From NCBI GenBank assembly GCA_001820055.1, contig MHOK01000019.1, positions 1 to 33,465 on the forward strand: 33,465 nt of DNA, written 5' to 3'. A program made the translations under genes and the position numbers. Within the stretch, counting starts at the first letter, position 1; every line of letters starts with the position of its first letter. Below the pieces are notes generated by a model that saw nothing but the letters and a program-made list of their open reading frames with translations, searched no databases and was not told where the DNA came from. This document shows, piece after piece, positions 9,161 through 30,365 of the stretch. The DNA is from Candidatus Spechtbacteria bacterium RIFCSPLOWO2_12_FULL_38_22 (GTDB lineage: Bacteria; Patescibacteriota; Minisyncoccia; Spechtbacterales; 2-12-FULL-38-22).

Positions 9161-9233
9161 AGCCAGCGCGCGGAATTGAACCGCGGACCCCGTCCTTACC
9201 ATGGACGTGCTCTGCCAACTGAGCTACGCTGGC
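9161..9233 (-). tRNA. tRNA-Thr(GGT)
   Basis: Minus: GCCAGCGTAGCTCAGTTGGCAGAGCACGTCCATGGTAAGGACGGGGTCCGCGGTTCAATTCCGCGCGCTGGCT. Confidence 0.95.
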
Positions 9234-9660: not shown

Positions 9661-9825
9661 CACAAAACTAGTACCTAGTAACACGCCTGCCTGCGGGTAG
9701 GCAGGTACCAAGTAACTAGTAATTTTTATTCCACCTTCGGCGGAATATCTTTTATTCCAACAGATCAGAACTTTTACTTGTTACTAGTTACTGATTACCT
9801 GTTACTGCGAGCAAAAAGCGCGAGC
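9661..9825. repeat. Intergenic repeat cassette, copy 1
   Basis: AGTAACTAGTAA blocks + TTTTTATTCCACCTTCGGCGGAAT + TTTTACTTGTTACTAGTTACTGATTAC; same architecture at 21340..21482 and partly 22396..22505. Confidence 0.75.
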
Positions 9826-10404
9826 TTATAATTCGTACCTTATGAACTCCCCTACTTGTATATTTTCTCCTAGTTTTGCTATACCCTCTTCTATAAGCTT
9901 AGCTATTGTTTTATCTTGATCCTTTATAAATACCTGACCAAGCAGAGAAACTTCTGAAACAAACCTATCTATTTTGCCGTCTATTATTTTACTAGTGATA
10001 TCAGCCGATTTGCCGGAATCCTTAATTTGTTCTTTATAAATTTCTTTTTCTTTATCCAAAACATCTTTAGGTATATCCTCGCGACTTATATAAGAAGGGT
10101 CCATAGCCGCAACATGCATCGCAATATCGCGAGCCAAATCTTGAAATTCTTGAGTGCGTGCAACAAAATCAGTTTCGCAATACAATTTCAACAAAACGCC
10201 AACTTTTCCACCCGAATGTATATAAGAAACAATAACACCCTCTTTTGCTTCTCGGGCCATTTTTTTTAAAGCGATAGCTGCGCCCCTTTTTCTAAGAACA
10301 TCTTTTGCATTTTGATAATCCCCTTTGGCTTCCAAAAGAGCGTTTTTAACATCCATAATGCCCGCCCCTGTTTCTTTCCTTAATTTTTGAATATCGTCTG
10401 TCAT
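9826..10404 (-). CDS. tsf: Elongation factor Ts
   Basis: IQKLRKETGAGIMDVKNALLEAKGDYQNAKDVLRKRG, CETDFVARTQEFQDLARDIAMHVAA. Confidence 0.96.
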   Translation of the reverse strand: MTDDIQKLRKETGAGIMDVKNALLEAKGDYQNAKDVLRKRGAAIALKKMAREAKEGVIVSYIHSGGKVGVLLKLYCETDFVARTQEFQDLARDIAMHVAAMDPSYISREDIPKDVLDKEKEIYKEQIKDSGKSADITSKIIDGKIDRFVSEVSLLGQVFIKDQDKTIAKLIEEGIAKLGENIQVGEFIRYEL

Positions 10405-11722: not shown

Positions 11723-12031
11723 ATGGCTCGCGATATACATCCACAATATTATACAAAAACAAAAGTAAAATGCGCTTGCGGCAACGAATTTTTAATTGGT
11801 TCAACACAAAAAGAAATAGAAACTGAAGTTTGTAGCCAATGCCACCCATTTTATACCGGACAGGAACGTGGAGCGGTTAAGGGTGGACGAATAGAAAAAT
11901 TCCAAGCAAAACTAGAAAAAAAACAAGTTTACCAAAAAAAATCTATAAAAAAAGCTAGAAAAAGAGAGAATTCTGAGCCCACTAAACAGACTCGGGTTAA
12001 GGGAACAGGATTCAAACCAGAGTTTATTTAG
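11723..12031 (+). CDS. rpmE: Ribosomal protein L31 with long basic C-terminal tail
   Basis: MARDIHPQYYTKTKVKCACGNEFLIGSTQKEIETEVCSQCHPFYTGQ; 3' end of the ORF overlaps the structured element at 11997. Confidence 0.93.
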   Translation: MARDIHPQYYTKTKVKCACGNEFLIGSTQKEIETEVCSQCHPFYTGQERGAVKGGRIEKFQAKLEKKQVYQKKSIKKARKRENSEPTKQTRVKGTGFKPEFI

Positions 12032-12273
12032 CGGAATCAATTTTGTTCATATTCTAGGCACGAGGAGCGAAACGATACTGGTAGTATCGTGAGCGACGAG
12101 TAACAAAGAGTATGGATAAAATTGACCCGCCCTAAAGGGAAGCTAAAAAATGTATCGTATGTTTCGTCATTTCTCCTCAAAGTAGATAAAACTACTTCTT
12201 CGTCGTCATTCCTTACATCCAATACATTTTCTAGCTTCTAAACTTAATTTTGGTTTGAATCCTGTTCCCTTAA
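11997..12273 (+). ncRNA. Candidate structured RNA element A, copy A1
   Basis: 23-bp perfect closing arms TTAAGGGAACAGGATTCAAACCA (11997..12019)/TGGTTTGAATCCTGTTCCCTTAA (12251..12273); P2 12037..12054/12108..12125; P3 12140..12155/12222..12237; homologous to 29214..29482 with covarying stems. Strand is inferred from the excess of G-U over A-C pairs. Confidence 0.65.
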
Positions 12274-12290: not shown

Positions 12291-13328
12291 GTGTCTGATA
12301 TTGATACGCTAAAAAAAGAATACGATGATCTTTCCCAAGAACTCACAAAAACAGAGGTTATTTCTGATTATAAAAGACTTCAAGAAATTTCAAAAAGACA
12401 CTCTAAATTAAGAGAAATTATTAACTTAAAAACTAAAATAGAAAAACTAACTCAAGATATATCCGACAATGAATCTATACTATCCCAAGAACAGAATACA
12501 GAAATGTTAGAAATGGCGCAGGAAGAATTAAACAAACTTCAAAAAGAAAAGTCCAAACTTGAACAGGAATTGGACAACGTGCTGAATCCCTCATCTGGAA
12601 CAAATATAAACGAAGCCATAGTAGAAATTCGCGCGGGGGTTGGCGGAGATGAAGCAACTTTATTTGCGCAAGACTTATTCCGTATGTACGCGCGTTACGC
12701 AGAACTACAAAATTGGAAAGTAACCGTCCTTGAAGAAAGTAAAAGCGAACTTAAGGGCATAAAAGAAATTATCATAGAAATAAAAGGAAAGGATGTATAC
12801 AAAAAATTAAAAAATGAAAGTGGTGTCCATAGAGTCCAAAGAATTCCGGAAACTGAAAAAAGCGGACGACTCCATACCTCAAGCAGTTCCGTAGCAGTAC
12901 TACCAAAAGCTAAGGATATAGATATAGACATAAAACCCAGCGATATTAAACTGGAAACATTTAGATCATCGGGTCCGGGAGGCCAAAATGTTAACAAAGT
13001 ATCTACAGCCGTGCGTATTACCTATTTGCCGACAGGTCTTTATGTTGCCTCCCAATCTTCAAAAAGCCAAGCAAAAAATAGAGAAATCGCAATGACCCTT
13101 TTGCGAAGTCGTCTATTACAAACGAAACGAGATGAAGAGGAAAAAAAACTAAAAACAGAACGCAAGGAACAAATTGGTTCTGGGGATAGAAGTGAAAAAA
13201 TAAGAACTTATAACTTCCCCCAAGACAGAATCACGGACCACAGGGTAAATAAAAGCTGGCACGGAATAAATGCTATAATGAACGGCGCGCTTAATCCAAT
13301 ATTTGACGAAGTGGATAAACAACTGTAA
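12291..13328 (+). CDS. prfA: Peptide chain release factor 1
   Basis: RIPETEKSGRLHTSSSSVAVLP (PxT-type RF1 motif), RSSGPGGQNVNKVSTAVRITYLPTG; GTG start. Confidence 0.95.
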   Translation: MSDIDTLKKEYDDLSQELTKTEVISDYKRLQEISKRHSKLREIINLKTKIEKLTQDISDNESILSQEQNTEMLEMAQEELNKLQKEKSKLEQELDNVLNPSSGTNINEAIVEIRAGVGGDEATLFAQDLFRMYARYAELQNWKVTVLEESKSELKGIKEIIIEIKGKDVYKKLKNESGVHRVQRIPETEKSGRLHTSSSSVAVLPKAKDIDIDIKPSDIKLETFRSSGPGGQNVNKVSTAVRITYLPTGLYVASQSSKSQAKNREIAMTLLRSRLLQTKRDEEEKKLKTERKEQIGSGDRSEKIRTYNFPQDRITDHRVNKSWHGINAIMNGALNPIFDEVDKQL

Positions 13329-20295: not shown

Positions 20296-20344
20296 GAGCT
20301 TCGCTTGCTTTTAGGGCTTTAAATTACTAGTTACTAAGTACTAA

Positions 20345-21339: not shown

Positions 21340-21482
21340 ACAAAACCAGTAACTAGTAACATTTAACAAGTAACTAGTAATTTTTATCCACCTTCGGCGG
21401 AATGTCTCTTGCCCCGACACGTCGGGACTTTTACTTGTTACCAATTACTGATTACTTGTTACTGCGAGAACAAAGTTCGAGC
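21340..21482. repeat. Intergenic repeat cassette, copy 2
   Basis: Same order of AGTAACTAGTAA blocks, TTTTTATCCACCTTCGGCGGAAT hairpin and TTTTACTTGTTAC...TTGTTACTGCGAG as 9661..9825. Confidence 0.75.
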
Positions 21483-22394
21483 TTATTCCCCATGTTCAAT
21501 TTTCCCTCCAAGAGTACGCAATTCCCTCAACGCTTCTTTTAGCTGGTCTTTCCTTTTAACTTCGTCCTCTGGTCCTGCTCCCGGAGGAACGCCGTGCCAG
21601 CGGTAATCGTCCTCCATAAAATCAACTCCCTTTCCCGGAATTGTATGCGCGATTATTAAAACCGGTTTTTGATGCACCGCCTTTGCTTCCTCCACTGTGG
21701 ATACGATTTCTGCTATATTGTGCGCATTCATTTCCATAACATGCCAACCAAATGCTTCGTATTTCTCTCGAAGCGGTTCAAGAGGCATTATATCTTCCGT
21801 AAAACCGTCTATTTGAATATTGTTTCTATCTATTAATCCAATGAAATTATCAAATTTTTGTTTTCCCGCAAACATTACCGCTTCCAATGTCATTCCTTCC
21901 TGCTGTTCGCCATCGCTCATAAAACAATAAATTGTATATTCATGTTCTTGGTTTCTGAATCTTCGCGCCATAGCCATTCCGCATGCCTGGCTTAACCCTT
22001 CTCCGAGGGGACCACTTGTGGTTTCAAGCGCCGGGATTCTGTGGATATTAGGGTGTCCTTCCAACCGTGAACCTATTTTACGTAAAGTCATTAGTTCTTC
22101 TTTTGTAATATCGTATCCAGCATGATGCATAGTTACATAACGAACTGGCACAATATGACCATTAGACAAAATTAAGCGATCTCGCTTTTCCCAGCGCGGT
22201 TCACGCGGCCTATGGTTTAAAATATGAAAATAAAACGCGGTAAATATATCTGCCATACCCAAAGGTCCGCCGCTATGTCCGCTTCCAGCTTCTTCCAGCA
22301 TCTTCATTAAATCTATACGAATCTCATTCGCCTTTTTTTCTAAAACTTTAATTTTTTCACTATGAATACTCATAATTTTGTTCGCTACGCTCAC
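21483..22394 (-). CDS. Transketolase N-terminal subunit
   Basis: MLEEAGSGHSGGPLGMADIFTAFYFHIL, RDRLILSNGHIVPVRY, GPLGEGLSQACGMA, DGEQQEGMTLEA, DRNNIQIDG. Confidence 0.93.
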   Translation of the reverse strand: MSVANKIMSIHSEKIKVLEKKANEIRIDLMKMLEEAGSGHSGGPLGMADIFTAFYFHILNHRPREPRWEKRDRLILSNGHIVPVRYVTMHHAGYDITKEELMTLRKIGSRLEGHPNIHRIPALETTSGPLGEGLSQACGMAMARRFRNQEHEYTIYCFMSDGEQQEGMTLEAVMFAGKQKFDNFIGLIDRNNIQIDGFTEDIMPLEPLREKYEAFGWHVMEMNAHNIAEIVSTVEEAKAVHQKPVLIIAHTIPGKGVDFMEDDYRWHGVPPGAGPEDEVKRKDQLKEALRELRTLGGKIEHGE

Positions 22395-24063: not shown

Positions 24064-25836
24064 CTATTTATTCGAATTTATATGTTCCATCGCGTATTCC
24101 ATGGAAGCACCAACTTTCTTACCCGGATTAAATATATTATTTGGGTCAAAAATCTCTTTTGTTCTCTTAAATAAATTATACACTTCTTTGCCATACATTT
24201 TTTCTAAATATGGACTTCTCATAAGACCGTCATTATGCTCTGCTGTTATTGAACCGCCTTCTTTAATTACTAGATCATAAATTTCATCAGAGACTTTTGG
24301 AATTTTTTCTCTCTCGCTTTTTTTTGTTAAGTCCATAAGCGGAATTATATGAAAATTTCCACTGCCTGCATGCCCCGCCAAAGTTGCTTTAATACCATAT
24401 TTTTTTAATATCTTATAAACCTGCGGTAAAACGCGAGGTAATTTTTCTGGTTTTACAATCAAATCATCCACAAAGGGCGCGGTTCTTTTACCACCAACAC
24501 TTTTGCGAAGTAAAGCAAAACTTTCCCGCCTTATGGTCCAGTACTTTTCTGCCTTTCCCTCTTCGTGCAACAAATGCATTGTAACGCCATGCATATCTTT
24601 TAAAACTCTTTCAAGCTCATTTATTTTGTCTTCTGCTTCTTTTTCTGTATCTTGCGCAAATTCAACAAGTACCACAATATCTGCAATAGCCATTAACTTT
24701 AGTTGCGCCCAAGCGTCGGGCAAAAATTGCAAAGCAAATTTAAATAAGTTACCACCTGCCTGCGCCGAGGCTTCGGCAGGCAGGCCTGACTGCGCCGAGG
24801 CTTCGGCAGGCAGGCCTGACTGCGCCGAGGCTTCGGCAGGCAGGCCTGACTGCGAACTCCGCTCAGGCAGGCCTTTTGCTTTTTTTGCAATTGCAGGAAA
24901 AAAACGCAAAGCTAAAGCCAAAGTAGAGTCGTCAAAAGTTTCAAGGCTTTCGGGTTCAAGCGGTAAGACTCTGTCAACTATTTGCGGTAACGAATCTAGT
25001 TTGCGTAAATATAATATTCCCAACCTCGTGTATTTTTTTTCTTTAACTAAACTCAACTTTGCCTCTGTAATAATTCCCAATGTGCCCTGCGAACCGCTAA
25101 ATAACTGCGTTAAATCAAAATTTTCTCTATTATAAACATCCCACAAAAAGTATCCCGCTGAATTTTTAGAAACCTGCGGGCGCGCTCTTTGTATAATGTC
25201 GTAATTATTTTCCAAAAGGTCATACATTTTTCTATAAATTTCTCCCTCAAAATCCTGCTGGTGCTTTTTTTTCTCTAATTCTTCTTTGTTTAGTTTACTG
25301 AAAATATATTCGTTACCATCGCTTAAAACTACTTTCAATTCTTTTACATACTTCTTCGTTTGTCCGTAACGCAAAGTTTTTTCTCCCCCGGAATTATTGG
25401 CAATCATTCCGCCTAAAGCGGCGATGGATTTACTCGCAGGATAACTAGGCAAAAGCACTCCTGCTTTTTGAGTTTCTACTTCAAAGTCTCTATAAAAAAC
25501 ACCGGGTTGCACCGTGGCTTCCATATCTCTTACAGCAAAGGTATTCATATATTTTGTACAATCCAAAATTATTCCCTCGTTGAGCGGACCGCCACTCATA
25601 TCAGTTCCTCCGCTACGCGCTGTGACAGATAAATTCCTGGGGGTTGAACCCCCAGGAATTGTCTTAGAATTTATGAATTCTACAATGTTTTTTATGTCTT
25701 GGGCGTCTTTGGGAAAAATGACCGCATGTGGCATAACTTTAAATAAACTGGTATCGGTTGAATACTTGTTGAGTGTTTCCTCGTCAGTAAATACTTCGCC
25801 TTTAACTAATTTTTTTAATTCGTTTGCAAATACCAT
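24064..25836 (-). CDS. FAD-linked oxidase (GlcD/lactate-dehydrogenase-like) carrying in-frame palindromic repeat insertions
   Basis: VTARSGGTDMSGGPLNEGIILD, GVLLPSYPASKSIAALGGMIANNSGGEKTLRYG, GSQGTLGIITEAKL, LAGHAGSGNFHIIPLMD, SITAEHNDGLMRSPYLEKMYG; start probably MVFANELKK. Confidence 0.9.
   Translation of the reverse strand: MVFANELKKLVKGEVFTDEETLNKYSTDTSLFKVMPHAVIFPKDAQDIKNIVEFINSKTIPGGSTPRNLSVTARSGGTDMSGGPLNEGIILDCTKYMNTFAVRDMEATVQPGVFYRDFEVETQKAGVLLPSYPASKSIAALGGMIANNSGGEKTLRYGQTKKYVKELKVVLSDGNEYIFSKLNKEELEKKKHQQDFEGEIYRKMYDLLENNYDIIQRARPQVSKNSAGYFLWDVYNRENFDLTQLFSGSQGTLGIITEAKLSLVKEKKYTRLGILYLRKLDSLPQIVDRVLPLEPESLETFDDSTLALALRFFPAIAKKAKGLPERSSQSGLPAEASAQSGLPAEASAQSGLPAEASAQAGGNLFKFALQFLPDAWAQLKLMAIADIVVLVEFAQDTEKEAEDKINELERVLKDMHGVTMHLLHEEGKAEKYWTIRRESFALLRKSVGGKRTAPFVDDLIVKPEKLPRVLPQVYKILKKYGIKATLAGHAGSGNFHIIPLMDLTKKSEREKIPKVSDEIYDLVIKEGGSITAEHNDGLMRSPYLEKMYGKEVYNLFKRTKEIFDPNNIFNPGKKVGASMEYAMEHINSNK
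24757..24870. repeat. In-CDS tandem 30-bp repeat of the GGCAGG family
   Basis: Unit cctgactgcgccgaggcttcggcaggcagg, about three copies plus partials; translates as SGLPAEASAQ x3. Confidence 0.92.
25632..25660. repeat. In-CDS perfect palindrome
   Basis: AATTCCTGGGGGTT g AACCCCCAGGAATT within the FAD oxidase ORF. Confidence 0.9.
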
Positions 25837-29075: not shown

Positions 29076-29144
29076 TCCACTATCTAGAGCGAGGGAGTAG
29101 GCCTATATATATTTTTTTGCCTCTCCCTCCTTCTAGATAGTGGA
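29076..29144 (-). ncRNA. Hairpin C1 of a three-member structured family
   Basis: TCCACTATCTAGA/TCTAGATAGTGGA 13-bp stem enclosing GAGGGA...TCCCTC and GGC/GCC. Confidence 0.6.
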
Positions 29145-29213: not shown

Positions 29214-29482
29214 AGCCTCCTAACTAACAACTGCAATTCATTTAGCGGAGTGTATATTCTTTATATTCTAGGCGTCGAGGAGTGATGCGATGCTTTAGTA
29301 TCGTGAACGACGAGCAACAAAGAATATGAAGAATATACACCCGCCCAAGGGGAAGTATAAAAATGAATTGTCTACTTTGTTATTGTTCCTCGAAGTAGTA
29401 GAACTACTCCTTCGTCGCAATGCCTAATATCCAATTCATTTTTATACTTCTAAAGTGTATTGCAGTTGTTAATTAGGGGGCT
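29214..29482 (+). ncRNA. Candidate structured RNA element A, copy A2
   Basis: Closing stem agcctcctaactaacaactgcaattca/tgtattgcagttgttaattagggggct; P2 29250..29268/29322..29340; P3 29353..29369/29433..29449; shares loop motifs with A1. Confidence 0.65.
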
Positions 29483-29549: not shown

Positions 29550-29625
29550 ATCTACTGCTTAGAACGAGAGGGTGTGGGCTTGTATTTTATTACTTTGTGC
29601 CTCCCTCTCCTTCCAAACAGTAGAT
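29550..29625 (-). ncRNA. Hairpin C2
   Basis: ATCTACTG/CAGTAGAT closing stem; inner GAGAGGG/CCCTCTC and GGGC/GCC. Confidence 0.55.
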
Positions 29626-29628
29626 TGT

Positions 29629-29704
29629 GTGAAAAACTAGAAACGGGAGGGCTATAGGGCTAGTTTATAACTTTTTCCCTGCCCTCTCCTTTCTAGTCTT
29701 TCAC
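29629..29704 (-). ncRNA. Hairpin C3
   Basis: GTGAAAAACTAG/CTAGTCTTTCAC closing stem; inner GGGAGGG/CCCTCTC. Confidence 0.55.
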
Positions 29705-30051: not shown

Positions 30052-30130
30052 TAGCCACTGTACTAAGCTCAACAAGTAAGTGCCGCACTTCTAATAAAAC
30101 AAAGAATATTATAATTTATTTCGTCGTAAG

Positions 30131-30180
30131 CCTGCCTACCGCCTGCCTACGCACAACGTGCAGGTAGACAGGCAGGCGGG
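30131..30180. repeat. CCTGCC/GGCAGG repeat cluster
   Basis: cctgcctaccgcctgcctacgcacaacgtgcaggtagacaggcaggcggg; inverse of the 16361..16430 core. Confidence 0.85.
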
Positions 30181-30224
30181 AACAAAGTGGTAGTGTGGAA
30201 TAAAACGCACTGTTTGTTAAAAAA

Positions 30225-30323
30225 AAGAGTTTATATAATTTATTTCGTCGTAAGCCTGCCTGCGGTAGGCAGGCGGGAATGAGCGTAGCGAATGGCAGCG
30301 TGAAATAAATTATACAAACTCTT
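30225..30323 (-). terminator. Long-stem terminator of uvrA with embedded palindromic repeat
   Basis: Minus AAGAGTTTGTATAATTTATTTC...GAAATAAATTATATAAACTCTTTTTTTT; 22-bp stem with CCTGCCTACCGCAGGCAGG in the loop. Confidence 0.75.
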
Positions 30324-30365
30324 TTGTTAATCCGTCTCAACTCCAAGCATAATACTTTCTACTTT

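Follow-up and report, generated by a model that had tools for sequence, protein, structure and literature searches.

Element A, a probable mobile palindromic DNA element of Patescibacteria that settles in spacers and at tRNA and rRNA genes

We describe a palindromic sequence of Patescibacteria, about 265 bp long and here called element A, which is probably a non-autonomous mobile DNA element. Terminal inverted arms of about 30 bp enclose two oppositely oriented hairpin units, and the whole has probably spread as DNA within and between genomes through a putative enzyme; that it moves is evident from its patchy distribution, its multiple copies and the presence of sites that lack it. It settles in intergenic spacers and strikingly often at stable-RNA loci, that is, directly before or inside tRNA genes and inside the helices of rRNA. 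In transcripts of these loci, its long duplexes would be removed or nicked by RNase III and RNase P, as with rRNA intervening sequences (IVSs). Switching of the replication template from arm to arm would recopy one arm onto the other and so keep the two complementary. The surprising part is the tRNA arrangement. At five loci a broken tRNA gene is accompanied by the sole intact copy with the same anticodon, lying in a palindrome of its own inside or adjoining the element, and this copy perhaps originated in the same template-switching process.

The window, meaning the whole 33,465-nt stretch of DNA that was analysed (contig MHOK01000019.1 of Candidatus Spechtbacteria bacterium RIFCSPLOWO2_12_FULL_38_22), holds two copies of the element, A1 and A2 (Table 1). 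A reading made from the sequence alone had described them as sharing one layout with stems that diverge yet remain complementary, and had placed them in no known class. Both statements hold. When folded against dinucleotide shuffles, A1 and A2 give MFE z-scores of -12.9 and -14.2, with 0 of 200 shuffles as good; neither copy has an Rfam match at gathering thresholds, and with three relatives added a search at E <= 1 returned no match to the element and no intron model. While the layout stood, several of the shared motifs that had been taken as unpaired turned out to be paired: TTTAG/CTAAA closes P1, GCGG/CCGC closes P2, and CCC...GGG forms a small hairpin. Since these conserved junction words are paired, the element is a three-way junction in which P1 closes two arms with the tiny CCC/GGG hairpin between them.

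Table 1. Positions of the two copies of element A, their parts and neighboring genes in the window
Feature	Position	Strand	Remark
A1, palindromic element copy	11997..12273	+	sits between rpmE (L31) and prfA (RF-1)
A1 left terminal arm (P1 5' side)	11997..12031	+	TTTAG at its end; doubles as final L31 codons
A1 hairpin unit 1 (P2 + apical hairpin)	12031..12130	+	GCGG/CCGC closure
A1 small CCC/GGG hairpin	12130..12139	+	separates units 1 and 2
A1 hairpin unit 2 (P3)	12140..12237	+	inverted homologue of A1 unit 1
A1 right terminal arm (P1 3' side)	12238..12273	+	carries tRNA T-loop-like GTTTGAATC
A2, palindromic element copy	29214..29482	+	within 1.3 kb spacer adjoining uvrA
A2 left terminal arm (P1 5' side)	29214..29245	+	CCTAACTAACAACTG type
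A2 hairpin unit 1	29245..29344	+	P2 stem 29250-29269 / 29321-29340
A2 hairpin unit 2	29351..29450	+	P3 stem 29352-29370 / 29432-29450
A2 right terminal arm (P1 3' side)	29450..29482	+	
Ribosomal protein L31 gene (rpmE)	11723..12031	+	final 11-12 codons come from A1 left arm
prfA (release factor 1)	12291..13328	+	neighbor downstream of A1

The two hairpin units are themselves related. In many copies a model built on the P2 half matches P3 too, on the opposite strand, which identifies the element as an inverted repeat of two hairpin units within terminal arms; A2 aligned to itself by BLAST gives a match of 76% on the minus strand. It had been reasoned that a miniature element (MITE) conserves its ends, and homologues with conserved terminal arms had been named as a sign of such an element. 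The premise does not apply here, as both ends of a given copy change together: the left and right arms of one copy are 93-95% alike, whereas arms of different copies are 58-69% alike in five genomes (G000, the source genome, and G002, G180, G246 and G297). Conserved arms are thus missing from these five, but they do occur elsewhere. Eight copies at separate loci in G014 have common arms (93% alike within copies, 91% between) and a core more than 90% identical, arms and core being alike as after a recent spread; copies at separate loci in G254 share arms that are 89% alike; and a recognizable common end of the type GGAGNGCAGGATTCGAAC is found in many copies across genera. The contrast is weak in G351 (70% within and 62% between copies). 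The right end resembles, by its sequence, the 3' end of a tRNA, with the T-loop consensus GTTYRANYC found in 20 of 86 right arms (for example that of A1) against 0.3 expected from shuffled arms. The copies are related, so these 20 arms stand for one or a few events. Some copies have received other palindromes, for example in P2 of L028, in L009 and around L112, so that palindromes are nested in palindromes. A divergent copy, L041 (G002 C34:8700-9500), has a second unit with a different stem, CAAGGCAATGCAT, and is apparently a recombinant of hairpin units.

The window contains other repeats as well. Three palindromes adjoin A2 (29080-29140, 29552-29626 and 29634-29700); they have an inner GAGGG...CCCTC and outer stems that vary, and resemble a further family of palindromic repeats. 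A hairpin repeat at 30110-30328 has a 27-bp stem around GTCGTAAGCCTGCC...GAGCGTAGCGAA and is partly duplicated, TATAATTTATTTCGTCGTAAGCCTGCCT being present twice. Three tandem 30-bp units with palindromes of the GGCTTCGGC type lie at 24755-24854, and direct repeats of the TTACTTGTTACTAGTTACTGATTACC type, 82-91% alike, are found at 9724-9829 and 21381-21486 and also at 20324 and 22471. On the minus strand, positions 311-433 match the Rfam L10 leader at 46.7 bits (cut-off 44).

The sequence-only reading had counted two copies. The source genome (623 kb, 24 contigs) in fact contains at least six, together with a short relic. BLAST with A2 over this whole genome gave matches on contigs C19 (two copies), C20 (one), C22 (one), C3 (one, with inserts) and C5 (the relic), and the covariance model added one tRNA-bearing copy on C1. 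Among the source genome and its nearest relatives, 4 of 57 genomes are positive, namely the source, G002 (about 14 matches), G014 (about 9) and G046 (1). Related genomes had been pointed to as the place to find homologues, and they were found there: the covariance model, R1, built on the P2 half and run across 387 genomes of the class, detected the element in 37, scattered patchily over many families with at most nine copies per genome, and those of one genome are at loci unrelated to each other. Beyond the class, it occurs in 3 genomes of a sample of 384 from the phylum, and an exact-pattern scan of GTDB contigs shows that the hosts include Ca. Staskawiczbacteria, Nealsonbacteria and Harrisonbacteria. 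Collections of phages, plasmids and IMG/VR contained no match, and thus give no sign of viral carriage. The resulting catalogue comprises 91 copies, most of them 260-300 bp from arm to arm.

Related genomes also provide sites without the element. The site after rpmE that A1 fills in the source genome is free of it in G001, G003, G014 and G046, and where G254 has a copy, G197 has a 16-nt stretch matching the right end of the element. Pairs of genomes within one genus yielded no clean empty site. What they offered was a remnant (L110/L169) and spacers that had been replaced, from which no target duplication can be read; none was evident among the catalogued copies or in the comparison of G254 with G197.

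The majority of catalogued copies lie outside stable-RNA genes, and the element is not confined to rRNA. Its proximity to tRNA genes is striking. Six of the 91 copies precede a tRNA gene by 0-19 nt, five of these by 0-3 nt as counted from the tRNA 5' end, while no copy comes as near as 25 nt to a tRNA 3' end. With 40 tRNA genes and 700 kb per genome assumed, about 0.2 copies would be expected at 0-3 nt even if intergenic DNA alone counts (P ~3e-6). Four copies are inside rRNA genes, three in 16S (L077, L078, L080) and one in 23S (L076), and of two copies in rRNA spacers one directly follows 23S and the other separates tRNA-Ile from 23S.

Some tRNA genes have been broken by the element, and here an intact copy of the same tRNA is found close by. 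On C22 of the source genome the element splits tRNA-Arg(GCG), with an intact tRNA-Arg(GCG) within the P3 arm. On C1 of that genome it follows the first part of tRNA-Glu(TTC), with an intact tRNA-Glu in the place of P3; the orthologous place in G002, upstream of a tsaD-like gene that we take from our own reading of its sequence to be tsaD, has the intact tRNA-Glu(TTC) between P2 and P3. In G002, the element also breaks tRNA-Lys(CTT), whose intact copy is in the place of P3; the intact tRNA-His is in a second palindrome 13 nt further along the same broken gene; and an intact tRNA-Thr(CGT) is in a palindrome adjoining the element. This amounts to five tRNA loci, one of them (Glu) common to both genomes, and in the tRNA inventories every intact copy is the sole gene found for its anticodon in that genome. 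Assembly artefacts could be suspected in the Thr locus, where the assembly contains N, and in the Arg locus, which is at a contig end. However, the loci for His, Lys and Glu are contig-internal and the Glu case recurs at an orthologous place in two separately assembled genera, which makes this explanation extremely improbable. An intron reading was rejected, as the flanking tRNA halves are short of 3-7 nt of the intact gene and precise splicing cannot restore the tRNA.

The intact copies have acceptor stems lengthened by palindromic flanks, most weakly in the tRNA-Glu copy of the source genome. Flanks of this kind with a score of at least 12 are present at 13 of 81 tRNA genes in the source genome and G002 versus 0 of 33 in G001, an element-free relative (p = 0.02). 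The tRNA-Thr(GGT) gene at 9161-9233 of the window has an acceptor stem lengthened in the same way, and a tRNA gene on C2 of the source genome (L035, 800-895), which gave only a partial tRNA match, has the palindrome CCTGCCTGCCGGCAGGCAGG in the region of its D-arm. The intact tRNA is in every case that of the broken gene, at a position that differs from element to element, which makes repeated local copying likelier than a fixed cargo. Entry into tRNA genes may be coupled to duplication of the tRNA, with a palindrome-enclosed intact copy formed in or beside the invader, so that single-copy essential tRNA genes become safe harbors and the cell comes to rely on the copy that the element carries; we put this forward tentatively, as a doubtful but possible account. 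In bacterial genomes that are among the smallest, a mobile palindrome has landed in single-copy tRNA and rRNA genes, the only intact tRNA being in or beside the invader, and the survival of an essential gene after an insertion of this kind becomes a directly testable question.

The covarying stems had been taken as the mark of a new structured RNA family, trans-acting or cis-regulatory, whose loops and stems would be under selection in the transcript. The covariation itself was borne out: 15 of 26 modelled pairs (14 of 21 in P2) have changed on both sides, the covariation score of 0.497 compares with 0.190 for shuffled alignments and is reached by 0 of 500 shuffles, and 95% of cells in the alignment are paired versus 78% in the shuffles. 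Strong folding, conserved loop motifs and the lack of an Rfam match likewise fit an RNA family. However, selection on the transcript should leave more G·U than A·C mismatches on its strand, and in the 53 copies with an assignable direction they number 74 and 90, respectively (p = 0.24). Without gene-based orienting, G·T outnumbers A·C in P2 and is outnumbered by it in P3, an opposite bias that follows from the two units being inverted homologues. Orientation with respect to neighboring genes is random (27 same, 31 opposite). Moreover, copies in G014 that are 92-98% identical elsewhere are 35% identical inside a swapped apical hairpin, which is either GATGCTGGAAGCATC or GTACCCTTGCGGTAC with pairing kept. 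Therefore, while the homologues, the covarying stems and the novelty with respect to Rfam stand, their reading as an RNA family is left unsupported by an element that is multicopy, patchy, mobile and strand-symmetric, with no excess of G·U, no orientation bias and hairpins swapped in one step; with the inverted-repeat symmetry and the insertions in essential RNA genes also against it, we consider such a family very improbable. The symmetry of G·U and A·C and the observed swaps of whole hairpins suggest instead that the covariation is likely maintained at the DNA level with replication template switching as its cause, a process that creates and maintains hairpins (PMC8794818). Covarying stems in an orphan repeat, then, need not signal a functional RNA, and the strand symmetry of mismatches offers a simple test of RNA selection versus arm-to-arm copying of DNA. 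If copies are transcribed on both strands, mismatch counts cannot separate upkeep at the DNA level from RNA selection, and selection on both strands, for example of RNase III substrates, may be compatible with the data. Template switching also leaves the conserved loops of both hairpin units unexplained, which implies that something recognizes them.

An IVS-type element would be of that sort, its stems selected as RNase III substrates through pairing of the RNA on either strand and its main habitat the tRNA and rRNA genes. The copies inside 16S, 23S and tRNA genes and the very long, near-perfect stems agree with this, as do the short non-intron insertions reported at known 23S IVS sites in CPR bacteria, for whose 23S genes RNase III-cleaved intervening sequences were inferred (PMC11270868). 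However, most catalogued copies are elsewhere and the transcribed orientation shows no preference for G·U. To our knowledge IVSs do not carry tRNA genes either, and overall we see this alternative as possible, though on the unlikely side. Turning to elements moved as DNA, a MITE of the ordinary kind, bounded by terminal inverted repeats and served by a DDE transposase, would account for the arms, for the ends common to copies in G014 and G254 and for the recognizable end across genera. It is quite improbable given how far the ends differ between copies within one genome, the lack of an established target-site duplication and the finding of no DDE_Tnp_1, the only DDE family searched, in 10 of 12 carriers. 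Better placed, but still unlikely, is a REP/BIME-like element whose mobility depends on a Y1 (RAYT-type) transposase that works on hairpins in single-stranded DNA. The palindromic form without evident target duplication, the insertion at hairpin-forming sequences as well as within other palindromes and the Y1 genes in 9 of 12 carriers are in its favor; yet Y1 is also present in 5 of 12 non-carriers and was not found in the copy-rich G351 (9 copies), G246 (7) and G341 (5), and about 265 bp far exceeds the length of a REP. The reverse transcriptase family RVT_1 is missing from many or most carriers and 23S_rRNA_IVP, the intervening-sequence protein of 23S, is common among non-carriers as well, such that none of the four families searched tracks the presence of the element.

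The preferred reading, a mobile palindromic DNA element, can be set beside several known systems. In the open-access literature on palindromic or MITE-like repeats of Patescibacteria and on elements within bacterial tRNA genes, we found element A nowhere described. Group I and group II introns and tRNA introns are likewise found inside CPR rRNA and tRNA genes; unlike them, element A has no Rfam intron match, hence no sign of a catalytic core, and its tRNA halves lack the nucleotides noted above. MITEs are also short, non-coding and multicopy with terminal inverted repeats, whereas the ends of element A match within a copy but differ between copies, and no cognate transposase was found among the four families searched. 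With REP, REPIN and BIME sequences and their RAYT (Y1), it has in common paired inverted hairpins and conserved non-stem parts, but it is several times the length of a REP and its presence does not track Y1. The IVSs of 23S rRNA are long hairpins in rRNA helices and expected RNase III substrates, as is element A, which differs in being dispersed in spacers and tRNA loci, in having two hairpin units between defined terminal arms and in encoding no IVS protein. Rickettsia palindromic elements (RPEs) are short and palindromic, occur in many copies and lie both in spacers and within genes, some of them RNA genes. Element A is like them in all of this, with A1 extending the L31 reading frame, the likeness being one of description with no sequence relation claimed; we know of no RPE that encloses an intact copy of the tRNA it disrupts or whose ends evolve in concert. 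Element A represents a real family of mobile palindromic elements, undescribed in the open-access literature, which in kind is nearest to the Rickettsia palindromic elements and the rRNA intervening sequences.
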